Below are positions 32,014 to 60,057 of a DNA stretch of 64,000 nt, one piece after another. This DNA is from an uncultured Lachnospiraceae bacterium (GTDB lineage: Bacteria > Bacillota > Clostridia > Lachnospirales > Lachnospiraceae), in the NCBI GenBank assembly GCA_947564735.1, contig CANOEC010000013.1:36848-100847 (forward strand), written 5' to 3'. Within the stretch, counting starts at the first letter, position 1; every line of letters begins with the position of its first letter. The notes beneath the pieces were generated by a model. That model had not been told where the DNA came from. It saw nothing but the letters and a program-made list of their open reading frames with translations, and ran no database searches. The position numbers and the translations under genes were made by a program.

Positions 32014-32655
32014 ATGTATAAAAATGGTATCAAGAGATGTCTGGATTTCTTGCTTTCGCTTGCCGGAATCATCGTACTTAGTCCGGTTCTGCTCGTTTTG
32101 GCAGCTCTGGTGCGTGTGAAACTCGGTGCCCCGGTACTCTTTAAGCAGGAAAGACCGGGAAAGAATGAGAAGATTTTTACACTGTGTAAGTTTCGGACGA
32201 TGACGGACGCACGGGATGAGAAGGGGAATCTTCTGCCGGATACGGCAAGACTGACAAAGTTCGGTAAATTTCTGCGCGGGACAAGCTTGGATGAACTCCC
32301 GGAACTGTTCAATATATTAAAGGGCGATATGAGCATTGTCGGTCCCAGACCGCTTCTCGTATCGTATCTGCCCTATTACAGCGAAAAGGAGCGGCTGCGC
32401 CATAGTGTACGTCCGGGCTTGACGGGGCTTGCGCAGGTCAGCGGGCGCAACTTTATCGACTGGGACAGACGGCTTGCGAAGGATGTAGAATACGTGGAAA
32501 ACCTGTCCTTTCGGATGGATATGAAGGTGCTGTGGATGACCGTGCAGACAGTGCTTGGGCATACGGAGGAAGTGGCGCAGGACACGAATGCGGTGGAAGG
32601 GAACTTTGCCGAGATTCGGAAAAAGAGACTGGAGGAGACGGGAACATTAGTATGA
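32014..32655 (+). CDS. PglC-like phosphoglycosyl transferase
   Basis: A 213-residue monotopic bacterial sugar transferase. It has an N-terminal membrane helix (KRCLDFLLSLAGIIVLSPVL), then FKQERPGKNEKIF, LCKFRTM, SLDELPELFNILKGDMSIVGPRPL and VRPGLTGLAQVSGRN. The Asp-Glu of SLDELPE is the catalytic dyad of this superfamily. At about 200 residues it matches PglC/WecA-independent initiators rather than the long WbaP type. It should transfer the phospho-4-amino-sugar to undecaprenyl phosphate and start the glycan. ATG 32014 has GGAGG eight bases upstream. Its stop overlaps the next start (ATGA). Confidence 0.93.
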   Translation: MYKNGIKRCLDFLLSLAGIIVLSPVLLVLAALVRVKLGAPVLFKQERPGKNEKIFTLCKFRTMTDARDEKGNLLPDTARLTKFGKFLRGTSLDELPELFNILKGDMSIVGPRPLLVSYLPYYSEKERLRHSVRPGLTGLAQVSGRNFIDWDRRLAKDVEYVENLSFRMDMKVLWMTVQTVLGHTEEVAQDTNAVEGNFAEIRKKRLEETGTLV

Positions 32656-33635
32656 ATATATTGATTTTGAGCGCCGGCACCCGGGACAAGGTGGTGCAGT
32701 ATTTTAAGAGAGAAATTGCAGATTTAGGCAGAATCATTGCGACTGATTGCAGTAATCTTGCGCCGGCGGTCTATGATGCGGATGCCTTTTATCTGGTGCC
32801 GAGAATTACGGCGCCGGGGTATATGGACAGGATTCTGGAGATTTGCAGGAAAGAAAAAATAACAGGTGTCTTTTCGCTGATCGACCCGGAGCTGAGTATG
32901 CTGGCAAAAGAACGAGAGAGGTTTCTGGAAATCGGCACAACGCCGATTATCTCTGGCTATGATTTGGTGGAAACCTGCTTTGACAAATATAAAATGTACG
33001 AGATGCTCTGCAAGATGCAGATTCCGACCGGCAGATGCTACCCGGATAAAGAGACCTTTTATCAGGCGGCGGAAAAGGGAAAAATCTCTTATCCGGTGTT
33101 CGTAAAGCCGGTGAAGGGAAGCGCCAGCCTTTACATTAATAAGGTGTATAGTCGTGAAGAGATAGAGGTGCTGTTTGGTCTGCATGAGGATTTGATGATT
33201 CAGGAGTATATGGACGGACAGGAGTACGGTGCAGACGTATATGTGGATATGATTTCCGGCAAGTGTACCTCTGTGTTTGTGAAGAAGAAGATAAAGATGC
33301 GTGCCGGGGAGACAGATAAATCGGTTTCCTTTAAAGATGCGCGTCTGTTTGACATGATAAAACAGTTCGTGGAGAACTGCGGGTTCCGGGGCATGATAGA
33401 TATCGATATTTTTGAGATTGAAGGCACGTATTATATCTCAGAGGTCAATCCCCGGTTTGGCGGCGGTTATCCGCACGCTTATGCCTGTGGCGTGAATATG
33501 CCGGCGCAGGTTATCCGTAATCTTGCAGGGCAGGAGAATCCGGTAAGAATAGGGGATTATGAGGAAAATATCGTGATGATGAAATATAATGAGATAGCGA
33601 TCCGCGATATGGAAGGGGAAGAGATTGTCCCATGA
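32652..33635 (+). CDS. ATP-grasp ligase, paralogue 2
   Basis: A 327-residue ATP-grasp enzyme paralogous to that at 10091: ILILSAGTRDKVVQYF, VFVKPVKGSASLYI, KIKMRAGETDKSVSF and EVNPRFGGGYPHAYACGVN. It is coupled by ATGA overlaps to the PglC-like gene before it and the PglA-like gene after it. ATP-grasp enzymes make amide or ester bonds from a carboxylate and ATP. In this module the expected acetyltransferase PglD is missing, so this enzyme may acylate the free 4-amino group with an amino acid or other acid. That is an inference from position; the substrates are unknown. Confidence 0.87.
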   Translation: MNILILSAGTRDKVVQYFKREIADLGRIIATDCSNLAPAVYDADAFYLVPRITAPGYMDRILEICRKEKITGVFSLIDPELSMLAKERERFLEIGTTPIISGYDLVETCFDKYKMYEMLCKMQIPTGRCYPDKETFYQAAEKGKISYPVFVKPVKGSASLYINKVYSREEIEVLFGLHEDLMIQEYMDGQEYGADVYVDMISGKCTSVFVKKKIKMRAGETDKSVSFKDARLFDMIKQFVENCGFRGMIDIDIFEIEGTYYISEVNPRFGGGYPHAYACGVNMPAQVIRNLAGQENPVRIGDYEENIVMMKYNEIAIRDMEGEEIVP

Positions 33636-39691: not shown

Positions 39692-40618
39692 ATGCATATG
39701 CAATACAAAGTGGTAGTGTTCGGGGTGAAAGACACTTCGGAGAATATCGTAAACTTTATACAGGAACAGATTTGTCCGGTGGATTTGGTGATTACCATCA
39801 GTCCGGAGGTAACGAAGAAAAATCAGGTGTCCGGTTATAAGGGACTGGGGGTGCTGACGGAAAAATATGGAATCCCTGTGCATGAGGCGGACAGTTATTT
39901 TTTGACGGACGACAAGACGCAGAAATTTATGAGCGAGAACGAGTTTGACATCGGTATTTCCATGGGCTGGCAGAGACTGATCCCGAAATCCGTGTTAGAC
40001 TGCTTCAAATACGGCATTTATGGATTCCACGGCAACTGCGGATATCTGCCCTTCGGAAGAGGACGTTCACCGCTCAATTGGTCGATTATTCTGGGAGATA
40101 CACGTTTTAATTTAAATATGTTCCGCTATGACGAGCGGGCGGACAGCCCGAACGTGTTTGCGACGGAGCTGTTTTCCATTACGCCCCATGATGATATACG
40201 GACGGCGCAGTATAAGAATATGATTTGCTCGAAAAATCTGATTCGCAGGCTTCTTAGGGCATATGCAGAAGGACATATTGAAATCCGCAGGGAGTCGAAG
40301 GATTTTGATTCGTGGTACGGTAAAAGGACGGCGGCAGACGGCAAGGTTGACTTCCATGCAAGGACGCGGGAAATCTACAATCTGATTCGGGGCGTTGCGG
40401 CTCCTTTTCCGGGCGCCTATGCGATGCTTGGCGGTGAGCAGGTTACTCTGTGGGAGGCGCATCCTTTTGATGAAATGATAGATTTTTCGGCATATGCGCC
40501 GGGAGAGGTGATTGATATTTTTGACGGGAAACCTATCGTGCGCACGGTGGACGGCTCTCTGCTGATCGACAGATACGAGAGTGAAAGACAGATTAGGGTG
40601 GGAGATTTACTGGAGTAA
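39692..40618 (+). CDS. ArnA/Fmt-like formyltransferase, paralogue 1 (altered catalytic motif)
   Basis: A 308-residue formyltransferase-fold protein. The segment YLPFGRGRSPLNWSIILG closely matches the SLLPKYRGRAPLNW segment of ArnA, which formylates a 4-amino sugar with N10-formyl-tetrahydrofolate. The catalytic His (His113) and Asp (Asp151, in DERADSP) are present, but the Asn expected two residues before the His is Gly111 (GFHG instead of NxH). The enzyme may therefore be weakened or use a different mechanism. A C-terminal Fmt-like domain follows. ATG 39692 has AGGAAG five bases upstream. The likely substrate is an amino-sugar nucleotide made in this locus. Confidence 0.82.
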   Translation: MHMQYKVVVFGVKDTSENIVNFIQEQICPVDLVITISPEVTKKNQVSGYKGLGVLTEKYGIPVHEADSYFLTDDKTQKFMSENEFDIGISMGWQRLIPKSVLDCFKYGIYGFHGNCGYLPFGRGRSPLNWSIILGDTRFNLNMFRYDERADSPNVFATELFSITPHDDIRTAQYKNMICSKNLIRRLLRAYAEGHIEIRRESKDFDSWYGKRTAADGKVDFHARTREIYNLIRGVAAPFPGAYAMLGGEQVTLWEAHPFDEMIDFSAYAPGEVIDIFDGKPIVRTVDGSLLIDRYESERQIRVGDLLE

Positions 40619-44221: not shown

Positions 44222-45887
44222 TGCATTGGAAGGGCAGAGCAGGGCAGTGCGGTTACCGGTAAGACGGCAGTTTCTTTTGCTGCTTTTCTTTGCCCCGTTC
44301 TATGCAGTATTCATTGTTTTAGGCAATTGGCAGAAGTCCGCTGATTATAGTAATCTGCAGAATATGGGAAGGTTTTTTTTGTGGACGGTTATCAGCTATG
44401 TGGTACTTCTGATTCTGTGTTTTTTGATTTCTAACAGGGATAAGCTGGCGGACTATCTTCCATTTTATAGTAAAATGCAGCCACAGCGGCGGCGAAGCGG
44501 CAAATGGTATACGTTTCCGGTGTGTTTTCTTTTTTGTCTGTGCAGTTATCTGCCGTACTATCTGATGTATTATCCGACATGGTTTAATAATGATGCGATA
44601 TGGCAGCTGGAACAGATACTGGGGTGGAAGGCAAAATCAAATCATCATCCGTATTTTCATACAATGGTGATTCGGTTTTTTTTTCATATCGGTTATCAGT
44701 TGTTCGGAAACAATACGGATGCGGTTGGCTTTTATACGTTCTGGCAGATGGCGGTTGTTGCCGCAGTGTTTGCCTTTTATCTGTATGTGCTGTATAGAAG
44801 GGGGACGCGTCCATTATGGATTGGAGTGGCAGCCGCTTTTTATGTTTTGCTGCCCGTGCATGGAATGCTCAGCATCTGTATGGGAAAGGACGCCTTTTTT
44901 GTGGCGGTATTATTGATGTTTGCATGGCTTTGCCAGAACTGTGTGGCACAGCGGGAGGAAAAAAGTTTTTATCTTATTTATTTTGCGGCAGGACTGTTGC
45001 TGTGTATGCTGCGCAGCAACGGTATTTTTATTTTTCTTGGCACCGAGGTGGTGCTGCTCCTTTCCGGAATCCGGGACAAAAGGTTTCTTGCAAGGCAGTC
45101 GGTATGTGCGTTTTCTGTGCTGTTATGTTATCTGCTCTATCAGGGTCCTGTTTTGAAAGCCATGCAGGTGGAACCGCCGGATACGATTGAAGGGCTTTCC
45201 ATGCCCACCCAGCATCTTATGTGCACATACGTCAAGGGAGGAAATCTGACGGAGGAAGAGGTGGCGATGATTGATGCGGTGGCGCCGGTGGAGAACATGG
45301 AAGAACACTACAATCCTTATTTGTTTGACATTGCCAAGGCATATATCAGAGAGGAAGGAAATCAGCAGGTAATCAAGGACAATAAGGGGCAGTATCTGAT
45401 GCTCTGGATTCGGGCAGGACTTAGGAATCCTATGCTGTATCTGGAAGCGGAGGTCCGGCAGACAGCCGGCTATTGGGCGTACAGGACGCCCCATGAGGAG
45501 TATTTGTACGGTGAGTATTTTATGGTTGATAATCCCTTTGGAATTACGGCAGAAAGAAAGCTCTTTTCTTATGACGCCAGTCTTGCCATGGGCAGTATGC
45601 TGATGAAATTCCAGCAGCTTTATCGCAAGGTCTGGAGTATGGGACTTAATACATGGGTATTGGTGTTTGCATTGGCATATATGGCATATCAGAAAAAAAG
45701 GGCAGCATTTGGCGTTCCTTTTATCATGCTTCTTGGAAGTCTGCTTCTGGCGACGCCGGTGTATAACGAGTTCCGTTATGCGTACGGGCTGTTTGCGGCG
45801 CTTCCGCTGTTGTTTTCCTATGCTTTTGGGTCTTCCGGTCTATACAATCAAAAGAAGGAGGGGGATGTCAATGAGGAAATGGCTTAA
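44181..45887 (+). CDS. DUF6020-like polytopic membrane protein, paralogue 2
   Basis: A 568-residue membrane protein with about eleven membrane segments, homologous to that at 24229: WFNNDAIWQLEQ, SNHHPYFHTMVIRF, CMGKDAFFVAVLL and LRSNGIFIFLG appear in the same order. The acidic loop followed by HHP suggests a catalytic site facing the outside, as in GT-C transferases, but no activity is established. ATG 44181 or 44199 may be the start; both overlap the GT4 gene. Its end overlaps the next gene by 17 bases, so it is coupled to the dlt-like cassette. Confidence 0.7.
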   Translation: MKFARHMKTSINDDALEGQSRAVRLPVRRQFLLLLFFAPFYAVFIVLGNWQKSADYSNLQNMGRFFLWTVISYVVLLILCFLISNRDKLADYLPFYSKMQPQRRRSGKWYTFPVCFLFCLCSYLPYYLMYYPTWFNNDAIWQLEQILGWKAKSNHHPYFHTMVIRFFFHIGYQLFGNNTDAVGFYTFWQMAVVAAVFAFYLYVLYRRGTRPLWIGVAAAFYVLLPVHGMLSICMGKDAFFVAVLLMFAWLCQNCVAQREEKSFYLIYFAAGLLLCMLRSNGIFIFLGTEVVLLLSGIRDKRFLARQSVCAFSVLLCYLLYQGPVLKAMQVEPPDTIEGLSMPTQHLMCTYVKGGNLTEEEVAMIDAVAPVENMEEHYNPYLFDIAKAYIREEGNQQVIKDNKGQYLMLWIRAGLRNPMLYLEAEVRQTAGYWAYRTPHEEYLYGEYFMVDNPFGITAERKLFSYDASLAMGSMLMKFQQLYRKVWSMGLNTWVLVFALAYMAYQKKRAAFGVPFIMLLGSLLLATPVYNEFRYAYGLFAALPLLFSYAFGSSGLYNQKKEGDVNEEMA

Positions 45888-46986
45888 GGCGGCGCTTTTT
45901 CTTCTTCCGCTTTTTTGTATGGTGGCGGCGGTTAACTGGTATGTGGATTCGTATGCGTATCTGAGAATTACATATGACCAGATTGGCGGGCAGATGATAG
46001 GAAATTCCATGAATGTGGCAGGACTGGAGGAGTCGGATTTCAACGACAGAAAACTGCTTCTTGCTTGCCTTAAGCAGCAGAAGGAGGCAAAAAAGCTGAT
46101 CGTTGCGGGTTCCAGCAGGGTGATGAATTTCGAGTATGGGATGTTTGGAACGGATTCCTTTTACAATACCGGGCTGTCTGAGTCTACCATTTATGACCTG
46201 CTGGCGGTCACGGGGATTCTCGTGGAGGAGAATAAGCTGCCGGAAAAGATGCTGATAGGGGTAGACGCGTTTCTGTTCAATGCCAGTCATAACAATGACA
46301 GATGGAAAGAACTGGAGGAGTACGCGGTTTACATGGAAGCGCAGCTTGAAGGGGCAGATGCCGGCGGCAGTGCACGGCCGGAGCCGATGGACGGCAGTGG
46401 TACGGCAAAGGAGCCGGAGGCGCCGTCTGTTTCTACCGGCACAGATGCCCGTAAGTGGCTGTCCTTGGATTATTTCCGTTACAATGTGACGCTTTTGCCG
46501 GAGGGAAAACGGTTTGATGTAAGTTATACGCGGGACTGGCAGACGGAACAATATCTGAAACATTATGACGGGAGCATTGCTTATCAGAGGACGCTTCGCG
46601 AAGTTGACGTGCAGGAAGTGGAGGAGCTGACCAGACAGTCCATAGAGGAGCAGGTTGTCTACCGTATGACAGATTTTAAGGAGATTGACGAAGAGAGTAT
46701 GCGGCTTCTTTCTGCGCTCATAGCGTATCTTTCAGACAGGGGCGTGGAGGTTATCTTATACTTGCCACCCTATTCGCCCATGATGTATAATTACATAGAA
46801 TCTGCCGGACAGTATCAGATTACTTTTCAGGTGGAAGAGAGGGTGAAGCAGCTTGCCAAAGAACAGGGCGTGCCATTGTACGGCTCCTATGATCCGGCAG
46901 GCTGTGGGCTTGAGATGACGGATTTATATGATATTTATCATGTGAAGACGGAGAAGATGATGGATACATTTTATTTGGTCAATTAA
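45871..46986 (+). CDS. DltD/AlgJ-like SGNH-fold membrane-anchored protein
   Basis: A 371-residue protein: one N-terminal membrane anchor (about residues 5-24), then an extracytoplasmic domain. The nucleophile segment VAGSSRVMNFE (Ser81 or Ser82) and the late DLYDIYHVKTE (Asp354, His357) are the SGNH block I and the DxxH block V, as in DltD and AlgJ/AlgX-type acyl-transfer partners. It opens a cassette whose next genes encode a DltA-like enzyme, a formyltransferase, a carrier protein and an MBOAT. It most likely passes the acyl group from the MBOAT to the glycan. ATG 45871 follows AAGGAGGGGG; the frame is open much further upstream inside the preceding gene but without support. Confidence 0.8.
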   Translation: MRKWLKAALFLLPLFCMVAAVNWYVDSYAYLRITYDQIGGQMIGNSMNVAGLEESDFNDRKLLLACLKQQKEAKKLIVAGSSRVMNFEYGMFGTDSFYNTGLSESTIYDLLAVTGILVEENKLPEKMLIGVDAFLFNASHNNDRWKELEEYAVYMEAQLEGADAGGSARPEPMDGSGTAKEPEAPSVSTGTDARKWLSLDYFRYNVTLLPEGKRFDVSYTRDWQTEQYLKHYDGSIAYQRTLREVDVQEVEELTRQSIEEQVVYRMTDFKEIDEESMRLLSALIAYLSDRGVEVILYLPPYSPMMYNYIESAGQYQITFQVEERVKQLAKEQGVPLYGSYDPAGCGLEMTDLYDIYHVKTEKMMDTFYLVN

Positions 46987-47024
46987 GGCAAAGCGTGTGA
47001 AGAGAAAGGGCATGGTAATGATAT

Positions 47025-48530
47025 ATGAAGGCGAACGTTACATACTGGCTGGATAAAACAGCAGACAGATTTCCGGATAAAACTGCCTTTGCAGACGAAC
47101 ATAAAGAAGTTACCTTCGGGCAGCTTAGGATGCAGGCTATGGCGCTGGCAACACAAATGCTTCAAATGGGATTATTTAAGAAACCGGTAGTCATTTATCT
47201 GGAAAAGGGGGTCGATGTACTGGTTTCTTTTATGGGCGCGGCATATAGCTGCAATTTCTATTCCCCCATTGACGTTGACATGCCGGCGAGCCGTGTCAAT
47301 AAGATTCTGGAAGTATTGCAGCCGCAGCTTGTCATTACCACCAAGACGCTTCGTGTTGCATTTGAGAGTTATGATTATGAGGGAGATTATCTGATTTACG
47401 AAGAAGGCATCGGGACGACGGCTGATCATGAGATGGTGGAGGCGGCAAGGTGCAGGGGAATCGATACGGATTTGCTGTACGTATTGTTTACTTCCGGTTC
47501 CACCGGCATTCCGAAGGGCGTGACAATTAACCACCGTTCGGTGATTGACTATATTGACTGGGTGACGGAAACCTTTGACATTACAGAGGAGGACAGCTTC
47601 GGGAATCAGGCGCCTTTTTATTTTGATAATTCGATTCTGGACATCTACAGTACGATTAAGAGCGGTGCAACGACCTATATTATTCCGAAAAATTTGTTTG
47701 CACAGCCGGTTCCGCTTTTGGAGTATCTGAAAGAAAAGCAAATCAACACAATTTTCTGGGTGCCCTCGGCGCTCATTGTGGTGGCAAAGCTGAAGGCGTT
47801 TCGCAATGTGGATTTGTCTAAAACGCTGCACCGGGTTTTGTTCTGCGGTGAGGTCATGCCGAATAAACAGCTTAACGCATGGCGGAAATATCTGCCCGAT
47901 GTTCTGTACGCGAATCTGTACGGTCCCACTGAAATTACGGATGCATGTACCTATTATATTGTAGACCGTGAATTTGCGGACGATGAACCGCTTCCCATCG
48001 GCATTCCGATGGCGAATACGGATATTTTGATTCTGAATGAGCGCGACGAACTTGTGAAGGACGATGAAATCGGGGAACTCTGTGTCAGAGGCACTTCGCT
48101 TTCTATGGGATATTATCATAATCCGGAGAAAACGAAGGAAGCGTTTGTCCAGAATCCTTTAAACCCTGCCGTGCCGGAGACAATCTACCGCACGGGGGAT
48201 CTGGTGAAATATAATGAATATGGCGAGATTGTATATTTGTCCCGTAAGGATTTCCAGATAAAACATATGGGACACCGGATTGAGCTTGGCGAGATAGAGA
48301 CAGCCGTTTCCTCACTTGAGGAAATTGCGCTTTGCTGCTGTCTGTATGATACGAAGCGTCAAAAGATTGTGCTGTTCATTGAAGAAGAGCTGGACAAGGC
48401 ATATATCAACGAGCGGATTTCCGGTCTGGTGCCCGAGTATATGCTTCCGGGCAAAGTCATTTCGCTTCCGAAGATGCCAATCAATGCCAACGGTAAGATT
48501 GACAGGGTGAAGCTGAAGGAGCTGCTGTAG
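47025..48530 (+). CDS. DltA-like amino acid adenylating enzyme
   Basis: A 501-residue stand-alone adenylation enzyme, the same size as DltA (about 504). Core motifs are FTSGSTGIPKGV (about 155-166), NLYGPTE, YRTGD and NANGKIDR with Lys491. The amino-group-binding Asp201 in FDNSILD and Cys274 in FCGEVMP match the DltA substrate pocket, where the Cys is linked to D-alanine preference. It should activate D-alanine or another small amino acid with ATP and load it on the carrier encoded at 49496. It starts 38 bases after the SGNH gene; its AAAGGG is 17 bases upstream, with an out-of-frame ATG between. Confidence 0.9.
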   Translation: MKANVTYWLDKTADRFPDKTAFADEHKEVTFGQLRMQAMALATQMLQMGLFKKPVVIYLEKGVDVLVSFMGAAYSCNFYSPIDVDMPASRVNKILEVLQPQLVITTKTLRVAFESYDYEGDYLIYEEGIGTTADHEMVEAARCRGIDTDLLYVLFTSGSTGIPKGVTINHRSVIDYIDWVTETFDITEEDSFGNQAPFYFDNSILDIYSTIKSGATTYIIPKNLFAQPVPLLEYLKEKQINTIFWVPSALIVVAKLKAFRNVDLSKTLHRVLFCGEVMPNKQLNAWRKYLPDVLYANLYGPTEITDACTYYIVDREFADDEPLPIGIPMANTDILILNERDELVKDDEIGELCVRGTSLSMGYYHNPEKTKEAFVQNPLNPAVPETIYRTGDLVKYNEYGEIVYLSRKDFQIKHMGHRIELGEIETAVSSLEEIALCCCLYDTKRQKIVLFIEEELDKAYINERISGLVPEYMLPGKVISLPKMPINANGKIDRVKLKELL

Positions 48531-48582
48531 GAAAATGTTAAGCAGTTTTATGGAAATAACAGGAGAGGGGTAGAAGATCCCT

Positions 48583-49473
48583 ATGAATACCAATACATCA
48601 TTTCAGCAGGTCGTTATCATAGGCTATGGGAAAGTGACGGGCGAAGTCTTACAGTATGTATATGACAGAAAAGAAGAATACGGTTATGAGCTTGCCTTTA
48701 TTGAGCATGAGGTGCATCCCTTTGGCGTCACGGAGAATATCTGTCGTCAGAACAAAATTTCTTTTGAGCGGATTACGGATAAAAGAAAGCTTGCCGCCCA
48801 GCTGGATAAACTTACGAAAGAAACGCTGATTATAAGCGCCAGCAATAATTTTCTGTTTCCGGCGGCGTTAGTTGCCAAGCCGAATGTTACGATTATTAAC
48901 TTCCACAACGCCCTTTTACCGGATTATCCCGGTAGAAATGCGCCCACATGGGTGATTTTTATGGGAGAGAAGTTGACAGGCATCACATGGCACTATGTGA
49001 CGGCTGGTGTGGACGAAGGCAATATCATCATACAGAAGCAGTGTGAAATAACGGGTGATATGAAAGCCTACGAGCTGACGGAACAGCTTATGGAACTTGC
49101 AGGGGAAGCGTTCAGGGAGAGTTTTGCGGATATCATGGCGCGGCGGGTGCAGGCAAGAGAACAGGGCTTTGCAAAAGACCGCAGAATGTATCGTTCTTAT
49201 GAAGTGCCCTCGGACGGCTTTTTTGACTTGACAGACGAACCGGAAGATATTTACCGCCTGCTTCGGAGCGTGGATTATGGGAAAAACGATATTTTTCCAC
49301 TGATGCGGACCGTCATGGACGGACAGCAGGTACAAATCTTAAGATATCGTAAGATTACGGCGGATAAAGCAAAGTCCGAGCAGGACAGCGGTCAGGAGGA
49401 CAAAGGGTTTTGTTATCTGCCGCTTGGGGAGAATATGGTTTTAAAGTTAAAATATGCCAGTATCATTGTGTAA
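48583..49473 (+). CDS. Formyltransferase-family protein within dlt-like cassette, paralogue 2
   Basis: A 296-residue protein with the formyl-transfer fold. After an N-terminal Rossmann region (VVIIGYGKVTGEVL) comes INFHNALLPDYPGRNAPTWVI, containing the catalytic Asn106-x-His108, and YVTAGVDEGNIII with Asp144. The complete Asn-His-Asp triad predicts N10-formyl-tetrahydrofolate-dependent transfer to an amine. It lies between the adenylating enzyme and the carrier protein genes, all closely spaced on one strand. The formylated amine may be the carrier-bound amino acid, as in the F domain of linear gramicidin synthetase, or an amino sugar. The position favours the former, but this is inference. 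Confidence 0.87.
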   Translation: MNTNTSFQQVVIIGYGKVTGEVLQYVYDRKEEYGYELAFIEHEVHPFGVTENICRQNKISFERITDKRKLAAQLDKLTKETLIISASNNFLFPAALVAKPNVTIINFHNALLPDYPGRNAPTWVIFMGEKLTGITWHYVTAGVDEGNIIIQKQCEITGDMKAYELTEQLMELAGEAFRESFADIMARRVQAREQGFAKDRRMYRSYEVPSDGFFDLTDEPEDIYRLLRSVDYGKNDIFPLMRTVMDGQQVQILRYRKITADKAKSEQDSGQEDKGFCYLPLGENMVLKLKYASIIV

Positions 49474-49495
49474 GCGGAAAGGAGAACAACAGAAA

Positions 49496-49726
49496 ATGGA
49501 AGAGAAGATTTTGGAGATTTTAGGAGAGCATTGTGAGGAGGCGCTTGATTATGACGGCGACAGCATGATGGAGGACGGGATTATAGACTCTTTTACCGTC
49601 ATTAATGTCATCAGCGACATAGAGGATGAATTTGATATTGAAATAGATGCAAAATATGTGGTAGCGGAGAACTTCAAGAATAAGGAAGCAATCATTGCGC
49701 TGGTGCAGCGGTTGTTGGAGGAATAA
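49496..49726 (+). CDS. DltC-like acyl carrier protein
   Basis: A 76-residue acidic carrier protein (DltC is about 79). Ser32 in GIIDSFTVINVI is the expected phosphopantetheine site, followed by the acidic helix ISDIEDEFDIEID and a FKNKEAI helix. ATG 49496 has GGAG 11 bases upstream. Its stop is directly followed by the MBOAT start, with no gap. It would carry the activated amino acid from the DltA-like enzyme to the membrane. Confidence 0.9.
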   Translation: MEEKILEILGEHCEEALDYDGDSMMEDGIIDSFTVINVISDIEDEFDIEIDAKYVVAENFKNKEAIIALVQRLLEE

Positions 49727-51301
49727 ATGCAGTTTACATCATATGCCTTTATCATACTCTGGATGGCTGTCTTTGCACTATATTATCTTTGCCCGAAAAA
49801 GATGCAGTGGTATCTTCTGCTTGCGGCGAGTGTGATATTTTATAGTATCGGGTTAAAAGGGATTCCGCTCGGTCTTCTTTTGACGGGCGTGACGACTTAC
49901 GGCTGCGGGCTGTATCTGAAAGGGAATCTTGCGCGGGAGAAGGAAGAACGCAGCCGGTGCGGCGACAAAGAGAGCAAAAAAGCGCTGAAAGCAGTATACC
50001 AAAAGAAAAGAAAAAGAGTGCAGGCGCTCTATATCCTGTGCAATCTGGGAGTGCTGGTATGCTATAAATATGCGGTCATTGCGGTGCCGGTGATTGAGAG
50101 GCTGACCGGTTCCCATGTCGGTTTTCTGGAAAAAGTGGTGATGCCGCTCGGTATTTCTTTCTATACGCTGACGGCAATCAGCTATGTGATCGATGCCGGC
50201 AGGGAAAATTGTGAGGTAGAAACCAATTTTCTGAAAGTGATATTGTTTCTGTCTTATTTTCCGGCGGTGACGCAGGGACCTTTCAACCGCTTTGCGCAGA
50301 TGAAGGAGCAGTTTGAAAAGGAGCATGTTTTTGAGTATGACAGAATGCTCCGTGGGATTCAGCGGTTTGTGTGGGGCGCGTTCAAGAAGATGGTGATTGC
50401 CGACCGTCTGGGCATTTTTGTGGACAGGGTGTACGGGACTGAGTCGTCTGTTGTTGCAGGCAGTATTTATATCTGCGCTACGGTTTTCTACATGCTGCAG
50501 CTCTATGCGGATTTTTCGGGATATATTGATATGGCATCGGGTATCAGCGAAACCTTTGACATTGTGCTGCCGGATAACTTTAAAAGACCCTATTTCTCGA
50601 AATCGGTGGCGGAATTCTGGCGCAGATGGCACATCACGCTGGGCACATGGTTTAAGGATTACGTGATGTTTTCTTTCGTGATGTCGGGCGTAGGACGGAA
50701 GATTTCCAAAACCTGTAAGAATAAGTGGAAGGGCTTGGGCAGGCAGGTGACGCCTATTATCGGCACGCTGCTTGTCTGGTTTTTTACAGGCATCTGGCAT
50801 GGCAGGACGGTGAGTTATATGCTCTGGGGCGTTTATTACGGCGTGATTATGAGCATGTCGCTTATTTTGGAGCCGTCCTTTGGTGTGTGGAAAAGAAAAC
50901 TCCATATTGAGGAGGGCAGGATATGGAGTGTTGTCTGTATGATTAGGACGTGGCTGATTGTTTTCGTGGCTGATGTGCTTATCAGAAGCGTGAGTCTGGC
51001 GCAGGCAGGTGCAATCTATGCTTCCTTTGTGACGAGACTGAACATCCGTAGTGTACTTTCTAAGGAGTTTACCTCTTACGGATTGAATAAATACGAGTTT
51101 CTGCTGTTGTTTATGGTACTGCTTATCTGGCTGGCGGTTTCTTTGGCGGAGGAGCGAGGTGTGGATGTGCGGACGTATCTTGCAGGCAGACCGGCAGTCA
51201 TCAGATGGGGCTGCTATTACGGAATCGTGCTGTTGCTATTGTTCACGGGCATTTATGGCGGCGGATATGATACGGCGGTGTTTATGTATCAAAGCTTCTG
51301 A
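49727..51301 (+). CDS. AlgI-like MBOAT acyltransferase
   Basis: A 524-residue membrane-bound O-acyltransferase with about eleven membrane segments. The conserved region runs LPDNFKRPYFSKSVAEFWRR, then WHITLG (His302) and WFFTGIWHG with the invariant His358. The length and these motifs are closer to AlgI/PatA (about 470-520) than to DltB (about 400). In dlt systems the MBOAT takes the aminoacyl group from the carrier protein to the outside. The start directly follows the carrier gene's stop, with GGAGG six bases upstream inside that gene, so the two are tightly coupled. Confidence 0.92.
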   Translation: MQFTSYAFIILWMAVFALYYLCPKKMQWYLLLAASVIFYSIGLKGIPLGLLLTGVTTYGCGLYLKGNLAREKEERSRCGDKESKKALKAVYQKKRKRVQALYILCNLGVLVCYKYAVIAVPVIERLTGSHVGFLEKVVMPLGISFYTLTAISYVIDAGRENCEVETNFLKVILFLSYFPAVTQGPFNRFAQMKEQFEKEHVFEYDRMLRGIQRFVWGAFKKMVIADRLGIFVDRVYGTESSVVAGSIYICATVFYMLQLYADFSGYIDMASGISETFDIVLPDNFKRPYFSKSVAEFWRRWHITLGTWFKDYVMFSFVMSGVGRKISKTCKNKWKGLGRQVTPIIGTLLVWFFTGIWHGRTVSYMLWGVYYGVIMSMSLILEPSFGVWKRKLHIEEGRIWSVVCMIRTWLIVFVADVLIRSVSLAQAGAIYASFVTRLNIRSVLSKEFTSYGLNKYEFLLLFMVLLIWLAVSLAEERGVDVRTYLAGRPAVIRWGCYYGIVLLLLFTGIYGGGYDTAVFMYQSF

Positions 51302-53688: not shown

Positions 53689-55611
53689 ATGTGTGGAATA
53701 TGCGGGTATATCAGTAAGAAGAACATAACCGTGTCCCAGCTTTGCAGGATGAATGATACGCTGCATCACAGGGGACCGGATGACGGCGGCGTGGAAATCT
53801 ATGACATGCCGGGCGGCTGGCAGGTGGGATTTGCGCAGAGGCGGCTGGCAATTCTGGATTTGTCAGCGCTGGGACATCAGCCGATGCATTCGGCGGACGG
53901 GCGGATATCTGTCGTCTACAATGGGGAAATTTATAATTATCTGGAATTGAAGGAAGAATTGGCGGACTATCCCTTTCGGTCGAATTGTGACACGGAAGTT
54001 ATCATAGCCGCCTATTTAAAATGGGGCATACAATGTGTGGAGCGGTTTAACGGCATGTTTGCGATTGCCCTTTATGACAGAGAGACGCAGGATATCTATC
54101 TGATTCGCGACCGCATCGGCAAGAAACCTCTTTATTATTGGTACGAGGACAGTAATCTTGTATTTGCATCGGAATTAAAACCGATTATGATGTGCCCCGG
54201 TTTTGCCGGCAAAATTGAAAAACGCGTGTTATCGCGCTACTTGTTCCAGCAATATATCAATGCGCCAGAGAGTATTTATCGGAACGTGTATAAGCTGGAG
54301 CCGGGCGCTGTTTTACAGTTTTCTAAGGGGACGCTGAACATATGGAAATACTGGGACGTTAAGAGCGTATATCATGAAGCGCTTCATAATCCGTTTACGG
54401 ATTATGAAGACGCGAAGCAACAGTTGAAGGCGGCGCTGCTAAAGTCTGTCAAGGCACGTATGATAGCCGATGTGCCTCTCGGTTCATTTTTGAGCGGTGG
54501 GTATGACTCCTCGCTGGTGACTGCTATGGCACAGGAATGCTCAGAGGAACCGGTTAAGACGTTTTCCATAGGCTTTTATGAGGAGAAGTATAACGAAGCG
54601 AAATACGCGAAAGCGGTGGCGGACTATCTGGGTACGAACCACACGGAGTTCTATATTGACGAGAAGGATATGTTTGACTTAGTAGAGAGCATTCCGGTGT
54701 ATTATGACGAGCCCTTTGCGGACAGTTCCGAGATTGCGACAATGATGGTGTCAAAGCTGGCGAAAGAGCATGTTACGGTCGCCCTTTCGGGGGACGGCGG
54801 AGACGAGTTCTTCTGTGGCTATCCTATCTACCAGATGGTTGCGCAGGCGCAGAAGCTGGATTTTGCGGGGGCACTGATACACGGCGTCTGCTCGCTTCCC
54901 GGATTGAAGCAGTTAGGCGTGGAAGACAGGCTTCCGTTTAAGGTGCGTGTGGTTGCCGGAAATCGTGCGAGGGAGAGCAAGACTCAGTTCGGTTCTGGAA
55001 ATTATCTTGTGAGAGCAAAGGCAATGGTGAAAGAGATGGACCAGACCAGACAGGCGGCAGGACAGAATGAGCCGTTCTCCATTCATTATTTGGTAGAAAG
55101 TCAGTATGCTGTGAAGGACTGGCAGGTAAGAAGGATGCTGCTTGATATGGATACTTATCTGCCGGGAGACATTCTCTGCAAGGTGGACAGAGCCTCTATG
55201 AAGTACTCGTTAGAGTCCAGATGCCCCATTTTAGATACGAATGTTATGGAATTGTCTTATAGGATACCACATGTATTTAAATATGCTGGCGGCGATAAAA
55301 AACATATTTTAAAAGACATTGCTTACGATTATATTCCGAAGAATTTGCTAGAAAGACCGAAGATGGGATTCAGTGTCCCAATCGATAAATGGCTGCGGGG
55401 ACCGTTAAAAGAACAGCTGTTAGATTACAGTAGTTACGATTTTCTTGCACGACAGGACATCTTTGATGCAGGGTATGTTTCGGACATGATTACACAGTAT
55501 ATGAAGACGGGAGATGCGGGTCCGGCGACGGGGGCGAACTACTCAAAACTGACGTGGTCATTCTTTGTTTTCCAACAGTGGTATCAAAAATATTGTGGAA
55601 ATGCGCGGTGA
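53689..55611 (+). CDS. Asparagine synthase-type glutamine amidotransferase, paralogue 1
   Basis: A 640-residue AsnB-family protein. Cys2 after Met1 (MCGICGY) is the glutaminase nucleophile; RLAILDLS, NGEIYN and SNCDTEV belong to the same domain. The synthetase domain has the ATP loop SGGYDSSLV and ALSGDGGDEFFCGY, with PGDILCKVDRASM later. In polysaccharide loci such proteins (for example WbpS) amidate uronic acids rather than make asparagine. A TviB/TviC pair for GalNAcA is encoded upstream, so conversion of a uronic acid to its amide is plausible. GAAAGGAAT precedes the ATG. A homologue lies at 58117. Confidence 0.9.
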   Translation: MCGICGYISKKNITVSQLCRMNDTLHHRGPDDGGVEIYDMPGGWQVGFAQRRLAILDLSALGHQPMHSADGRISVVYNGEIYNYLELKEELADYPFRSNCDTEVIIAAYLKWGIQCVERFNGMFAIALYDRETQDIYLIRDRIGKKPLYYWYEDSNLVFASELKPIMMCPGFAGKIEKRVLSRYLFQQYINAPESIYRNVYKLEPGAVLQFSKGTLNIWKYWDVKSVYHEALHNPFTDYEDAKQQLKAALLKSVKARMIADVPLGSFLSGGYDSSLVTAMAQECSEEPVKTFSIGFYEEKYNEAKYAKAVADYLGTNHTEFYIDEKDMFDLVESIPVYYDEPFADSSEIATMMVSKLAKEHVTVALSGDGGDEFFCGYPIYQMVAQAQKLDFAGALIHGVCSLPGLKQLGVEDRLPFKVRVVAGNRARESKTQFGSGNYLVRAKAMVKEMDQTRQAAGQNEPFSIHYLVESQYAVKDWQVRRMLLDMDTYLPGDILCKVDRASMKYSLESRCPILDTNVMELSYRIPHVFKYAGGDKKHILKDIAYDYIPKNLLERPKMGFSVPIDKWLRGPLKEQLLDYSSYDFLARQDIFDAGYVSDMITQYMKTGDAGPATGANYSKLTWSFFVFQQWYQKYCGNAR

Positions 55612-55840
55612 TTGTATAACCCACGAAATACTATAAAGAGTAGAATAACGGTAGCTTTAAGAGAAAATTACGAGCAAAAAGAGTTAGAAAAAAGAAAAAA
55701 TAGTCCATACAATTTAAAACTCGAAAATAAAATCAAATTTAATAAAAAAAGTTTTTACAGGAGATTTTGCAGGAAAAATGCAATAAATTTGCAAAAAAAG
55801 ACTAAAAAATAAAAAATATGAAGGATTTTATTCAAATGAC
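55612..55840 (+). other. AT-rich gap with no supported gene
   Basis: This 229-base stretch is much richer in A and T than its surroundings and dominated by A on the plus strand. A 66-codon frame from TTG 55612 is full of Lys and Asn and lacks a ribosome binding site, so I do not call it a gene. It may hold a promoter or leader for the following transferase gene, or mark a junction between two blocks. Confidence 0.5.
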
Positions 55841-56956
55841 ATGAAAACAGTCGAAGAAAAAAAACACATTGCATTTTATATTGGTTCACTTCACAAGGGA
55901 GGGGCGGAAAGAGTCTTCGTGAATCTGGCAGAATTTTTCTTGAAGGAAGGATATCGGGTAACGATGGTGACCCAGTATCAGTATCCAGAGGAGGAAGAGT
56001 ATGCGCTGCCAAAGGAAGTAAAACGAGTGTTATCCGAACTTGCCCCGAAGGAGATTCATAACAGTCGTGTCGTGAATTTTTTGAAACGCGTGAATAAATT
56101 ACACAAGATATGGAAAAATGAAAAACCGGATTTGGTTTTGTCCTGCATTGGCAAGAACAATTTCATGACGATTGTTACGACAATGGGTACAAAAACGAAA
56201 CCGGTGGTGTCGGTAGTCGGGGAGGCGAAGGAAGAATATCCGAACAGGCTGATGCGTATGCTTGCTGATTTTTTATTTCCCTTTGCCGCGGGTGTTATTT
56301 TGCAGACCGAACGATCCAAAAATTTTTTCTGCAGGAGGATACAGAAAACGGCTGTTATACTTCCGAACTCTTTGAACCCGGATTTTATCAAACCGAGATA
56401 TATGGGTGAGCGGGAGAAACGAATTGTGACGGTGGGGCGTCTGGATGCAAACAAAAATCATGAGATGATGATTCGCGCCTTCGCAGCAATGAAAGAGAAA
56501 TATCCGGAGTATACATTGACGATTTACGGAGAGGGAGAATTGCGAGGTTATCTGGAAAATCTGACGAGAGAGCTTGGCGTCTTAGAAGCGGTATTTCTGC
56601 CGGGAGTGATTCCTGATGTGGCGGCGCAGATTGAAAGGGCATCGCTGTTCGTACTGGCTTCTTATTCGGAAGGCGTTTCCAATGCTCTGATTGAAGCGCT
56701 TGCCTTGGGACTGCCCGTGATTGCGACGGATGTGCCAAGCGGCGGCACGGTGGAGCTGATGGCGGATGGAGTAAATGGGCTGGTGATTCCGACCGGAGAC
56801 CGTCAGGCATTGGAGCAGGCGATGGACCGTATTCTCGGCGATGCCGCGTATGCCGACAGACTTGGCGGGGAAGCAGCGAAGCTTCAGGAGCGCCTTGCAC
56901 CGGAGAGAGTGAACCGGCTGTGGCAGGAATATTTTGAGCGGATTATGAATAGTTAG
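55841..56956 (+). CDS. GT4 glycosyltransferase
   Basis: A 371-residue GT-B transferase: FYIGSLHKGGAERVFVNLAEF at the N-terminus, IVTVGRLDANKNHEMMIRAF and LASYSEGVSNALIEALALGLP in the donor domain. It resembles the product at 43097. The start ATG 55841 lies in an AT-rich leader; AAGGA is 15 bases upstream and an overlapping ATGACATGA gives a two-codon frame ending at the start codon. It probably adds one sugar of the repeat unit. Confidence 0.88.
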   Translation: MKTVEEKKHIAFYIGSLHKGGAERVFVNLAEFFLKEGYRVTMVTQYQYPEEEEYALPKEVKRVLSELAPKEIHNSRVVNFLKRVNKLHKIWKNEKPDLVLSCIGKNNFMTIVTTMGTKTKPVVSVVGEAKEEYPNRLMRMLADFLFPFAAGVILQTERSKNFFCRRIQKTAVILPNSLNPDFIKPRYMGEREKRIVTVGRLDANKNHEMMIRAFAAMKEKYPEYTLTIYGEGELRGYLENLTRELGVLEAVFLPGVIPDVAAQIERASLFVLASYSEGVSNALIEALALGLPVIATDVPSGGTVELMADGVNGLVIPTGDRQALEQAMDRILGDAAYADRLGGEAAKLQERLAPERVNRLWQEYFERIMNS

Positions 56957-57014
56957 CTTATCATATATAGAAGAAACATAACAGATGATACGATTGAACA
57001 GAAAGGGATGCGGA

Positions 57015-58106
57015 ATGATTCGGAGCAGTAAAGTGCGGAATGCGCTGCAAGGTGCTATTTTTATCATAATTTTTGTGATACTGTTTGTTCTGGTATCTTA
57101 TATGGTAAGAACGAATGGCGATGTGAAGGATCGGTTTTCTGGTTTTTATGCGGAGAAGAATGATACGCTGGATATTGTGATGATTGGTTCCAGCCCGGTC
57201 TTTCCTTATTATAGTGCGCCGAAGCTGTGGGGAGAGACAGGAATTGCGATGTACCCGCTTTCCTCCAATGTGCAGCGTCCGATTGCCATGAAATATCTGG
57301 TGCGGGAGGCGGAAAAGTCCCAGTCTCCGGCGCTGTATATTTTTGAGATGAGGATGTTTACGATGGAGGATGCCGGGTTAAGTGAAAATATGGCATATAC
57401 CCGCGGCGTGACGGATAACATGAAGTATTCTCCGCTCCGATACGAGACCATACAGGCGATGGTGCCGAAGGACGATGAGGAGGGGCGGATTACTTTCCAT
57501 ATGGATATGATGAAATATCATACGAACTGGAAGATGCTGGCGCTTCCTTCCGAGTGGGCAAATATGCTTTATCATAAAGCGCATCCTTTGAAGGGTTATA
57601 CTTTTAAAGACGAAGTGGGTCCTTTGCCGATGCCGGATTGCGGCGGTGCGGAAGGGACGATGAAGATTCCGGCGGAACAGGAAGGATATTTAAGGGACTT
57701 GCTTGCATTTTTGCAGGAGGAAGAGCAGGATGCATTGTTTATCGTTTCGCCCTATGGAGAGTCGCTGCATGACCAGCAGATGTTCAATTATATGGAAGAA
57801 ATCGTGACTTCTTACGGATATTCTTTTTTAAACATGAACAATTATTATGAAGAAATCGGGATTGTCTTCGAGGAGGATTTTGCGGATTACGGCAGCCACA
57901 CCAATGCCGTGGGCGCAGAAAAATGTACGGACTTTCTACGAGAGTATTTATCGGAGCACTACGCATTTACAGATAAACGGGGCGATGCGGCATATGCGTC
58001 GTGGGATGAGGCGTATACGCGATGGGAGAATGAGATGGCGTCGGCAAGACAGGTGATACAGGACAGGATTGCCAAGGAAGAATATGCGGTGATTGAGGAA
58101 GAATGA
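57015..58106 (+). CDS. SGNH-like membrane-anchored protein
   Basis: A 363-residue protein with an N-terminal membrane anchor (about residues 12-33) and an external domain. IVMIGSSPVFPYYS (Ser59 or Ser60) and DYGSHTNAVGAEKC (Asp291, His295) fit SGNH-hydrolase blocks I and V as in AlgX/DltD-type partners. It has the same general plan as the protein at 45871 but low similarity. It lies between a GT4 and the second amidotransferase gene. No MBOAT is adjacent, so it may share the one at 49727. AAAGGG lies seven bases before ATG 57015. Confidence 0.65.
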   Translation: MIRSSKVRNALQGAIFIIIFVILFVLVSYMVRTNGDVKDRFSGFYAEKNDTLDIVMIGSSPVFPYYSAPKLWGETGIAMYPLSSNVQRPIAMKYLVREAEKSQSPALYIFEMRMFTMEDAGLSENMAYTRGVTDNMKYSPLRYETIQAMVPKDDEEGRITFHMDMMKYHTNWKMLALPSEWANMLYHKAHPLKGYTFKDEVGPLPMPDCGGAEGTMKIPAEQEGYLRDLLAFLQEEEQDALFIVSPYGESLHDQQMFNYMEEIVTSYGYSFLNMNNYYEEIGIVFEEDFADYGSHTNAVGAEKCTDFLREYLSEHYAFTDKRGDAAYASWDEAYTRWENEMASARQVIQDRIAKEEYAVIEEE

Positions 58107-58116
58107 GGGAAAACAC

Positions 58117-60057
58117 ATGTGCGGAATTGCCGGTTTATGTAATTGGGGCGATAGTTGGCAGAAGAATATCGAGCGGATGAATGCGAAGTTGTACCACCGG
58201 GGACCGGATGCCTCAGGCATCTGGGCATCCAAAGACTATAAGGTGGTTCTAGGACACAGGCGGCTTTCCATTGTGGATCTGACGCCGTCCGGCGCGCAGC
58301 CGATGGAGTCACATAACGATCGATATGTCATTGCGTATAACGGGGAAATTTACAATCACCAGCAGGTCAGAGAAAAACTTCTGCGCGAGAAGAAGGTAGA
58401 CGCTTTTCGGGGCACGTCCGATACGGAAGTCCTGTTGGAAGCGGTTTCGGCATATGGGCTGGAAGATACCCTTGGCATGGTGAAAGGGATGTTTGCCATC
58501 GCCTTATACGATAAAAAAAATGAAACGCTGTTATTGGCGCGCGACCGGGTGGGGGAGAAACCGCTGTACTACGGATTCGTGAATAACAACTGTTTTGTAT
58601 TTGCCTCCGATTTGAATGCAATTGCTGCCTTGGATGGTTTTGGGAACCCAATCAATACAGGTGTTTTGGAAAATTATTTCCGTTATGGATATATTGCTGC
58701 GCCTTGCTCCATTTATGAGAATATCTATAAATTACAGCCGGGAAAATACTTGGAAGTCAAAGCGCCGTTTCAGAAAGTTACGATAAAAACATACTGGTCG
58801 ATGATGGACACAGCCGTTTATGGGCAGACACATCTCTTTCGGGGGAGCGAGGCAGAAGCGGCGGAAGAATTGGAGCGTCTGCTCAAAGAGTCTGTGAAAG
58901 GGCAGATGGTGGCGGATGTACCGGTGGGTGCATTCCTCTCTGCCGGGATTGACAGCAGTACAATCGTATCGCTCATGCAGTCTTTGAGCGGGCGGAAGGT
59001 GCAGAGCTTCACAATCGGCATGTGGGATGCGAAATTTAATGAGGCGGATACCGCGAAAAAGATTGCACAACATCTGGGGACACAGCATACGGAGTTATAT
59101 ATTACGGAGCAGGACGCCAAGGCTGTGATTCCGCAGCTTGCCGGAATGTTCGGCGAACCCTATGCGGATTCGTCACAGATACCGACTTATCTCGTAAGTA
59201 AGATGACGAGAGAACATGTGACAGTGTCTCTTAGCGGCGATGGCGGTGACGAGCTGTTCTGCGGTTATAATACCTATGGTTCCATTGACCGGATTTGGAA
59301 TAGGACAAGACGGGTTCCCTATGTGGTCCGTAAGCCGGCAAGTGTGCTGTTGGGAGCAGTCTGCGGCGTGGGAGGCGGTGCGGCGGCGACCAGGGCAAGA
59401 CTGCTTGGCGCGCGCAGCATGGAAGATATGTACCTGCGCTCTGAAATAGGAGAAGGCTTCGGGATTGTCAGAAGGGATTGTCGAAAACCACGGGTAGGCG
59501 GGAATATCACGATGGATACCGCGATACTTGAGGAAAACTGCCTGACCGTTATGGATACCTATCCTGCCGGCACGTTGAAGGAACCACAGCACAATCTGAT
59601 GCTGATGGATTTGTTAATGTATCACCCCGATGATATCTTGAATAAAGTGGACAGAACCGCGATGGCGGTCTCGCTTGAAACGAGGGTGCCGATGTTAGAC
59701 AGGGATGTGGTGGAATTTGCGTGGACACTGCCCCTATCTTATAGGAAGAAAGACGGAGTGACCAAGAAGATTCTGCGGGATATCCTCTACCGTTATGTGC
59801 CGCGTGAACTGATGGAACGACCGAAAACGGGATTCAGCATTCCCCTGCATAAGTGGCTGAAGGAGCCGGAGCTGCGCCGATGGGCGGAAGAATTGATTGA
59901 CAGGGATACATTGGAAGAACAGTCGTTATTGAACGTGGATACAGTTTGGAGATTGTGGAATGATTATATTGAGCGGGATATCTGGCGTGTGCAGATATGG
60001 TATATTTTGATGTTTCAGGAATGGATGCGGTATGCAGATGAAAAATCGCCTTCGTGA
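58117..60057 (+). CDS. Asparagine synthase-type glutamine amidotransferase, paralogue 2
   Basis: A 646-residue AsnB-family protein: MCGIAGLCNWG with nucleophile Cys2, YHRGPDASG, HRRLSIVDLTPSG, NGEIYNH and TSDTEVLLEA in the glutaminase domain; SAGIDSSTIVSLM (SAG replacing the usual SGG) and SLSGDGGDELFCGYN in the synthetase domain. ATG 58117 is needed to place Cys2; the frame opens 24 bases earlier. It probably amidates a uronic acid or related carboxylate of the glycan. The end of the coding sequence, from about 60034, overlaps the hairpin of repeat B copy 3. Confidence 0.9.
   Translation: MCGIAGLCNWGDSWQKNIERMNAKLYHRGPDASGIWASKDYKVVLGHRRLSIVDLTPSGAQPMESHNDRYVIAYNGEIYNHQQVREKLLREKKVDAFRGTSDTEVLLEAVSAYGLEDTLGMVKGMFAIALYDKKNETLLLARDRVGEKPLYYGFVNNNCFVFASDLNAIAALDGFGNPINTGVLENYFRYGYIAAPCSIYENIYKLQPGKYLEVKAPFQKVTIKTYWSMMDTAVYGQTHLFRGSEAEAAEELERLLKESVKGQMVADVPVGAFLSAGIDSSTIVSLMQSLSGRKVQSFTIGMWDAKFNEADTAKKIAQHLGTQHTELYITEQDAKAVIPQLAGMFGEPYADSSQIPTYLVSKMTREHVTVSLSGDGGDELFCGYNTYGSIDRIWNRTRRVPYVVRKPASVLLGAVCGVGGGAAATRARLLGARSMEDMYLRSEIGEGFGIVRRDCRKPRVGGNITMDTAILEENCLTVMDTYPAGTLKEPQHNLMLMDLLMYHPDDILNKVDRTAMAVSLETRVPMLDRDVVEFAWTLPLSYRKKDGVTKKILRDILYRYVPRELMERPKTGFSIPLHKWLKEPELRRWAEELIDRDTLEEQSLLNVDTVWRLWNDYIERDIWRVQIWYILMFQEWMRYADEKSPS

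Follow-up and report, generated by a model that had tools for sequence, protein, structure and literature searches.

A formyltransferase encoded in a carrier-fed MBOAT-SGNH cassette of an uncultured Lachnospiraceae bacterium may N-formylate a carrier-bound amino acid

On what does a formyltransferase act when it is encoded between an amino-acid adenylating enzyme and a small carrier protein? The question is raised by a locus of an uncultured Lachnospiraceae bacterium, contained in a stretch of 64,000 nucleotides (the window) that was taken from a contig of 100,847 bases (CANOEC010000013.1) in an assembly of 4.5 Mb. Five genes at 45871-51301 encode, in this order, an SGNH-like protein, the adenylating enzyme (A), the formyltransferase (F), a DltC-like carrier (C) and an MBOAT acyltransferase. 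The reading favored here, with moderate confidence, is that F N-formylates an amino acid bound to C before its transfer by the MBOAT and SGNH proteins.

According to this reading, A would activate an alpha-amino acid with ATP and load it onto the phosphopantetheine of C, and F, with a formyl-folate donor, would N-formylate the amino acid while it remains on C. The MBOAT would then take the N-formyl-aminoacyl group from C to the outer face of the membrane, onto the tyrosine of its own FMYQSF shuttle, from which the SGNH protein would move it to a hydroxyl of the polysaccharide of the surrounding gene cluster. The parts, motifs, order and co-inheritance were read from sequence; the chemistry of each step and the identity of both amino acid and acceptor are inferred. 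A precedent is described in PMC5053139, where the F domain of LgrA N-formylates valine in a formylation-adenylation-peptidyl carrier protein (F-A-PCP) module.

Genes and motifs of the cassette

All five genes lie on the plus strand, and their order and every catalytic residue named in the original prediction were confirmed. The SGNH-like protein (45871-46986, 371 aa) has an N-terminal hydrophobic segment and carries Ser81/82, Asp354 and His357; A (47025-48530, 501 aa) carries D201, C274 and K491; F (48583-49473, 296 aa) carries the triad Asn106/His108/Asp144; and C (49496-49726, 76 aa, with a longer open reading frame call starting at 49454) has its phosphopantetheine serine at Ser32. The MBOAT (49727-51301, 524 aa) carries His302 and His358 and ends in the acyl-shuttle motif FMYQSF, of the FXYXXF type, at 51281-51298 on the plus strand. 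That the five genes stand together is more than chance, for the set was met again in distant genera, with its genes in several orders. Searches of the bacterium's own genome gave 10 MBOAT (PF03062) matches in 4.5 Mb, 5 matches to PF00551 and, with A at E ≤ 0.001, a single match, A itself.

The MBOAT scored 46.5 bits against PF03062 (cut-off 27) and 154.1 bits against the DltB model TIGR04091, below the cut-off of 375; it matched solved DltB at E 1.4e-24, and His358, within GIWHG, aligned with the WHG of DltB. An FXYXX[FY] sequence formed the C-terminal end in 100 of 108 MBOATs, two of the eight others (L031 and L120) being cut by a contig end. As described in PMC12148441, the C-terminal tyrosine of FXYXXF in PatA-PatB carries the acyl group to the SGNH partner, DltX of the Dlt pathway has the same motif, and the other MBOAT-SGNH pathways covered there have no carrier protein. 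By its predicted parts, the window cassette joins the carrier of the Dlt pathway with a fused shuttle of the PatA-PatB type.

The SGNH assignment is the weakest of the five. No Pfam family was matched over its cut-off (DUF1574 scored 18 bits), and the AlphaFold model (mean predicted local distance difference test score, pLDDT, 52.9) was too poor for a fold search. The GSSR and D-x-Y-H blocks were invariant in 13 close homologs, and a profile of the protein matched the SGNH-like partners of other MBOATs modestly (probability 70%, E 3.9e-5, 62 columns).

The enzyme A exceeded the cut-off of the amino-acid adenylation model TIGR01733 (337.9 against 317.4 bits) and fell below those for DltA, with 321.6 bits for TIGR01734 (cut-off 559.85) and 326.8 bits for NF003417 (cut-off 476). 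The carrier likewise scored 34.2 and 22.3 bits against DltC models with cut-offs of 68 and 52.35. The cassette had been called dlt-like; this stands in that it is predicted to work like Dlt, but a true dlt operon was rejected, since A, C and the MBOAT all miss the Dlt model cut-offs and the shuttle is fused to the MBOAT.

With pocket positions assigned through GrsA numbering and located by motif, the 10-residue code of A reads DNLWLCLDAK, and it was common to all 17 A sequences read from the clade close to the window and to L141. Asp201 corresponds to the residue that binds the free alpha-amine in adenylation domains, and D306 (GrsA-based position) is an unusual acidic residue at a side-chain position of the code. 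The codes separated cassette types and allowed no amino acid to be assigned; a lysine in the DAK and DVK codes is reminiscent of glutamate codes. In eight other loci (L175, L203, L206, L207, L212, L213, L216 and L220), most of them with C and MBOAT, the code was SM[LT]WLALDIK, in which serine replaces the alpha-amine-binding aspartate of amino-acid adenylation domains; these enzymes may load something other than an alpha-amino acid. Selenomonas-type loci (L055, L061 and L083) showed two different A genes in tandem (DNLW.. and DILW..) ahead of F, as if two amino acids were loaded.

Coupling of the formyltransferase to the adenylating enzyme

A relative of F at E ≤ 1e-20 was present in 7 of 200 family genomes, the window's included. 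Species genomes, scanned by alignment with a single peptide pattern of F, yielded 77 F loci, 17 of them close to the window; five genomes sampled earlier recur among them (L040, L047, L051, L059 and L088). Models derived from the window and a handful of relatives served to assign gene classes up to 6 kb from F. A, C, MBOAT and SGNH genes accompanied F on the same strand in 32 of the 77 loci. The rest comprised loci with A, C and MBOAT (3), C and MBOAT (1, cut by a contig end), A and C only (21), A only (9), C only (3), MBOAT and SGNH on the other strand only (3) and none of these (5).

Regardless of the complete set, 56 of 77 loci had A on the strand of F and no more than 400 nt away from it, including 40 of the 60 outside the close clade, and either A or C lay within that distance in 58. 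Gene orders varied, from SGNH-A-F-C-MBOAT in the window clade to A-F-C-MBOAT-SGNH in L058, L066 (recorded as Ornatilinea sp., of the Chloroflexota) and L077, and to SGNH-MBOAT-A-C-F in L059. In L023 (8932-10203) and L034 (8865-10412), an extra open reading frame, hydrophobic by eye, was found between F and C.

Two loci, L062 and L092, encode A and F fused in one open frame. The fusions, of 796 and 808 residues and 57% identical to each other, have the order A-F with both active-site motifs intact, and C, MBOAT and SGNH genes come next. Overlapping A and F frames were seen in L064 and L075, among genes that did not look glycan-related when read by eye.

A different arrangement was observed in genome G176, which has an F-less A-C-MBOAT-SGNH cassette (L110/L140), whereas its F is encoded on a different contig next to a divergent SGNH-MBOAT pair (L020/L088); L081 and L099 show the same layout as L088. 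For both A and MBOAT, L140 groups as sister to the F cassette L058, which fits a function of F in trans on the same kind of carrier. In L088, L081 and L099, F comes directly after gyrA-like and recF-like genes (identified by eye in the L020 translations), far from A and C.

Membership of F in the carrier-loading unit is supported, indirectly, by the A-F adjacency in 56 of 77 loci, the two A-F fusions and the trans F with its F-type cassette. The original proposal that F formylates a carrier-loaded amino acid is thus partly supported, and is qualified by F being optional, as described below; the small amino acid and the surface glycan named in it stay predictions.

The association was also reflected in the phylogenies. 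When tips were labeled F, GNAT or neither, 7 changes were needed on the MBOAT tree (n = 108; shuffled mean 35.9) and 7 on the A tree (n = 104; shuffled mean 33.8), values as low occurring in 0 of 200 shuffles each. Near-copies inflate this contrast; in trees thinned to 76 rows, MBOAT and A still required 7 changes each, with shuffled means of 25.0 and 25.1. The F label is, by these sequence trees, inherited with the cassette, and trees of this kind cannot tell whether the MBOAT senses the formyl group. The idea that MBOAT tracks F better than A does was dropped, since the A tree needs the same 7 changes; discordances between MBOAT and A (L059/L065 and L164/L176) point that way and are too few for a claim.

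Alternative substrates, F-less cassettes and other neighbors

F itself is a confident family member, with 77.4 bits against PF00551 (cut-off 26.1), an Asn-His-Asp triad invariant in 32 aligned relatives and an AlphaFold model of pLDDT 94.4; its closest counterpart in the species-genome scan, 82% identical, came from an uncultured Lachnospiraceae metagenome-assembled genome. A number of observations weigh against formylation on the carrier, and they are set out here with the alternatives that they favor. The closest solved structures among the matches listed (Foldseek, VIA-align) were the sugar formyltransferases WbkC, QdtF, FdtF, WlaRD and ArnA, with tRNA formyltransferases also close. LgrA was not among the best 50 matches listed for the F model, which excludes nothing, and it matched F in sequence at 29 bits. 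As modeled, the fold and sequence of F do not discriminate between sugar and aminoacyl substrates.

These structures point to the possibility that F is a sugar N-formyltransferase for an amino sugar nucleotide of the repeat unit and merely shares an operon with the aminoacylation cassette, which is considered unlikely. The cassette lies inside a polysaccharide cluster with glycosyltransferases, a Wzy_C match, a UDP-sugar dehydrogenase, an initiating sugar transferase, a DegT aminotransferase, a Polysacc_synt_2 protein, an ATP-grasp ligase and two asparagine-synthase-like genes. Because the DegT aminotransferase and a dehydratase are encoded upstream of the cassette, together with the Polysacc_synt_2 and initiating transferase genes, an amino sugar on which F could act may exist in the window cluster; a DegT relative was also detected in 7 of the 77 F loci. 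Among the 18 F-MBOAT loci outside the window clade, however, none had a DegT relative (phmmer, E ≤ 1e-8; flanks up to 8 kb), nor did L044, which has a weak MBOAT match and stands outside the 18. The window DegT gene itself is some 17 kb upstream of F, farther out than the flanks available for close relatives. The absence of DegT from these loci, together with the A-F fusions in L062 and L092, makes the sugar reading less likely, and the A-F pairs that stand alone among non-glycan-looking genes in L064 and L075 (by eye) also speak against it. L062 and L092 are sisters on the A tree, however, so that they probably represent one fusion event. Neither A nor C lay within 400 nt of F in 19 of the 77 loci.

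Of the other cluster genes, the PylC-like ATP-grasp ligase (32532-33635) follows the initiating sugar transferase, and the two asparagine-synthase-like genes lie downstream of the cassette (53689-60057). A second formyltransferase-family gene, F2 (39692-40618), matched Formyl_trans_C at 59.7 bits and Formyl_trans_N at 25.6 bits and was present in 9 of 17 close relatives, as far as their flanks had been fetched. Since it reads GFH where F has N-x-H (aligned by eye), its catalytic asparagine seems to be missing.

The A-F coupling would also fit if F acted on the free amino acid, or on an amine of its side chain as in a diamino acid, and A then selected the formylated form, so that formylation preceded loading. 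The acidic D306 at a side-chain position of the code (GrsA-based position) agrees with this order of events. It is nevertheless regarded as improbable, given that A retains Asp201, the binder of the free alpha-amine in adenylation domains. LgrA, too, provides its precedent for formylation on the carrier (PMC5053139).

Counter-evidence to the on-carrier reading also came from cassettes that have no F. Homologs of A were found in 179 of 397 family genomes (E ≤ 1e-60) and are much commoner than F. Of the 94 best-ranked A matches, 90 entered a survey of contexts, those left out being the A genes of L017, L018 and L019, fetched earlier as F loci, and that of G174, which was not fetched. Both C and MBOAT were present in 70 of the 90. 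The first refuting condition set with the original prediction, absence of F from otherwise identical cassettes of relatives, speaks against it for most of the similar cassettes: 63 of these 70 contexts lacked F and also lacked a GNAT acetyltransferase, F being present in 4 (the window, L141, L182 and L205) and GNAT in 3. Adding the F loci L017, L018 and L019 gave 7 with F among 73. The code DVKWMSLCNK occurred with F in 2 survey contexts and without an adjacent F in 6, L140 among the latter. Because of these 63 contexts and the occurrence of one code both ways, F is read as dispensable, an optional tailoring step.

Among 13 F-less genomes with the code DVKW[ML]SLCNK, a genome-wide search for F gave no match at E ≤ 1e-20 in 11; the other two, G026 and G195, had formyltransferase matches at 84 and 75 bits, and G082, searched alongside, has a separate F cassette. 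Matches of 75-84 bits in G026, G184, G338 and G195 were taken as other family members, and a weak match in L216 (85.9 bits) was not counted as F.

The window's own code, DNLWLCLDAK, was found with MBOAT in four survey contexts: two with F (the window and L141), two in which a GNAT separates A from C (L132 and L133), and none bare. The latter two GNATs scored 40.2 and 34.7 bits against PF00583, and that of L139, with another A code, 42.5. All three GNAT survey cassettes have an MBOAT and showed no F in the fetched flanks. GNAT genes in the A-C slot of F-less MBOAT cassettes were mapped at L100:570-1451, L101:3075-3935 and L108:3000-3806, the first two with the window's A code. Owing to the shared slot, the shared code and the retained MBOAT, GNAT perhaps acetylates what F formylates. 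We raise, tentatively and as something rather doubtful, the idea that carrier-fed MBOAT-SGNH systems form a modular family with an exchangeable cap placed on the carrier-bound amine before export (none, formyl by F or acetyl by GNAT), with conversion of N-formyl to N-formimidoyl (amidine) by a WbuX/NASAT-like enzyme in one branch.

Of the 77 F loci, 12 also had GNAT-model matches beside F itself, and most of these clusters had no MBOAT nearby. The matches scored 20.6-72.8 bits, against 382.9-473.9 for the three GNATs that built the model, and none occurred in the 17 close-clade loci or the 18 other F-MBOAT loci. L044, with its weak MBOAT match, has both F and GNAT, and in L090 another GNAT adjoins F. 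The GNAT may accordingly do something other than capping, and confidence in both carrier formylation and the capping family was lowered because GNAT-like genes stand beside F as well. L210, with the A code of the GNAT cassette L139, had no GNAT in 7.6 kb. In L087, the protein between A and C of an MBOAT-A-(protein)-C set with the window's code matched the GNAT model at 58.1 bits; since Pfam gave nothing for it at E ≤ 0.01, it was left out of the GNAT count.

F loci without a nearby MBOAT bear on a further alternative, in which the cassette feeds intracellular N-acyl transfer to an amino sugar and the MBOAT-SGNH pair uses another acyl donor. Sets of A, C and F without a nearby MBOAT are frequent (A and C only in 21 of 77, A only in 9 of 77), they often include AAC(3)-like (13 of 77) or GNAT-like (12 of 77) proteins, and the bacterium's own genome holds ten MBOATs. 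This route is judged quite improbable, as the window has its C and MBOAT genes side by side and both are present in 70 of the 90 A contexts surveyed in the family. AAC(3)-type genes stood beside A in 4 of 90 survey contexts, none with MBOAT. They were recorded beside A and C, with no MBOAT in the fetched flanks, at L104:3003-3779 and L107:3009-3806 and in L134 and L168, the scan with PF02522 covering the first two; they may be the acyl transferase of clusters without MBOAT.

A WbuX/NASAT-like PP-loop amidotransferase was found at 400 bits or more in 13 of 77 F loci (L047:5437-6471, L054, L062, L076, L077, L080, L081, L084, L088, L091, L092, L095 and L099), adjoining A-F in 8, after SGNH in 2 and beside a trans MBOAT in 3, with weak matches of 94-100 bits in three more F loci. 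Seven of the 13 were scanned and scored 145-178 bits against the WbuX model TIGR03573, below its cut-off of 203.2. The protein occurred in 0 of 88 survey loci, where flanks were shorter and F cassettes numbered only three, and no WbuX-like gene was among the neighbors of the window cassette. According to PMC10607449, NASAT enzymes ligate ammonia to the N-acetyl group of a sugar; by analogy, such an enzyme beside F suggests an N-formimidoyl group.

Significance and relation to known systems

The value of D-alanine esters on envelope polymers lies in the positive charge that their amine provides. If F does formylate the carrier-bound amino acid, the formyl cap would remove this charge, so that the usual purpose of dlt systems could not be served and the resulting surface group would be of a new kind; under the modular capping idea, envelope glycans would bear esters of N-formyl, N-acetyl or N-formimidoyl amino acids. 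N-formyl amino acids are sensed by mammalian formyl-peptide receptors, which would make an N-formyl product of interest in gut commensals. Many gut Lachnospiraceae genomes and named strains carry the cassette, so that the proposal can be tested; Anaerosacchariphilus polymeriproducens MCWD5 and Eubacterium sp. 14-2 are cultured sources of A, C and F. In agreement with the original statement that no described dlt system with a formyltransferase was known, the open-licence literature searched yielded no description of a formyltransferase combined with DltA or an MBOAT. The proposed system would join formylation of the nonribosomal peptide synthetase type, carrier-dependent MBOAT transfer and a fused acyl shuttle, so far studied separately.

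The cassette shares with DltABCDX, the teichoic acid D-alanylation system, an adenylating enzyme, a small carrier, an MBOAT, a putative SGNH-type partner and the acyl-tyrosine shuttle motif. It differs in that its A, C and MBOAT fall below the DltA, DltC and DltB cut-offs, its shuttle is fused to the MBOAT, its SGNH-like protein is not recognizable as DltD by Pfam or NCBIfam, a formyltransferase is present and the site is a polysaccharide cluster. With the PatA-PatB and AlgI-type MBOAT-SGNH acetyltransferases it has in common the C-terminal FXYXXF fused to the MBOAT and the SGNH-like partner, whereas those systems, as described in PMC12148441, use acyl-CoA without a carrier and in the window A and C would supply the acyl group. 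The F-A-PCP initiation module of LgrA likewise brings F, A and carrier together, and A and F form one protein (order A-F) in L062 and L092; in the window, by contrast, F and A are separate open reading frames and no peptide synthesis is found, and F is not N-terminal in the fusions. Finally, the sugar N-formyltransferases WbkC, QdtF and ArnA have the same PF00551 fold and Asn-His-Asp triad, but F of the window is coupled to A and carrier genes, and related F proteins are fused to A in two loci.

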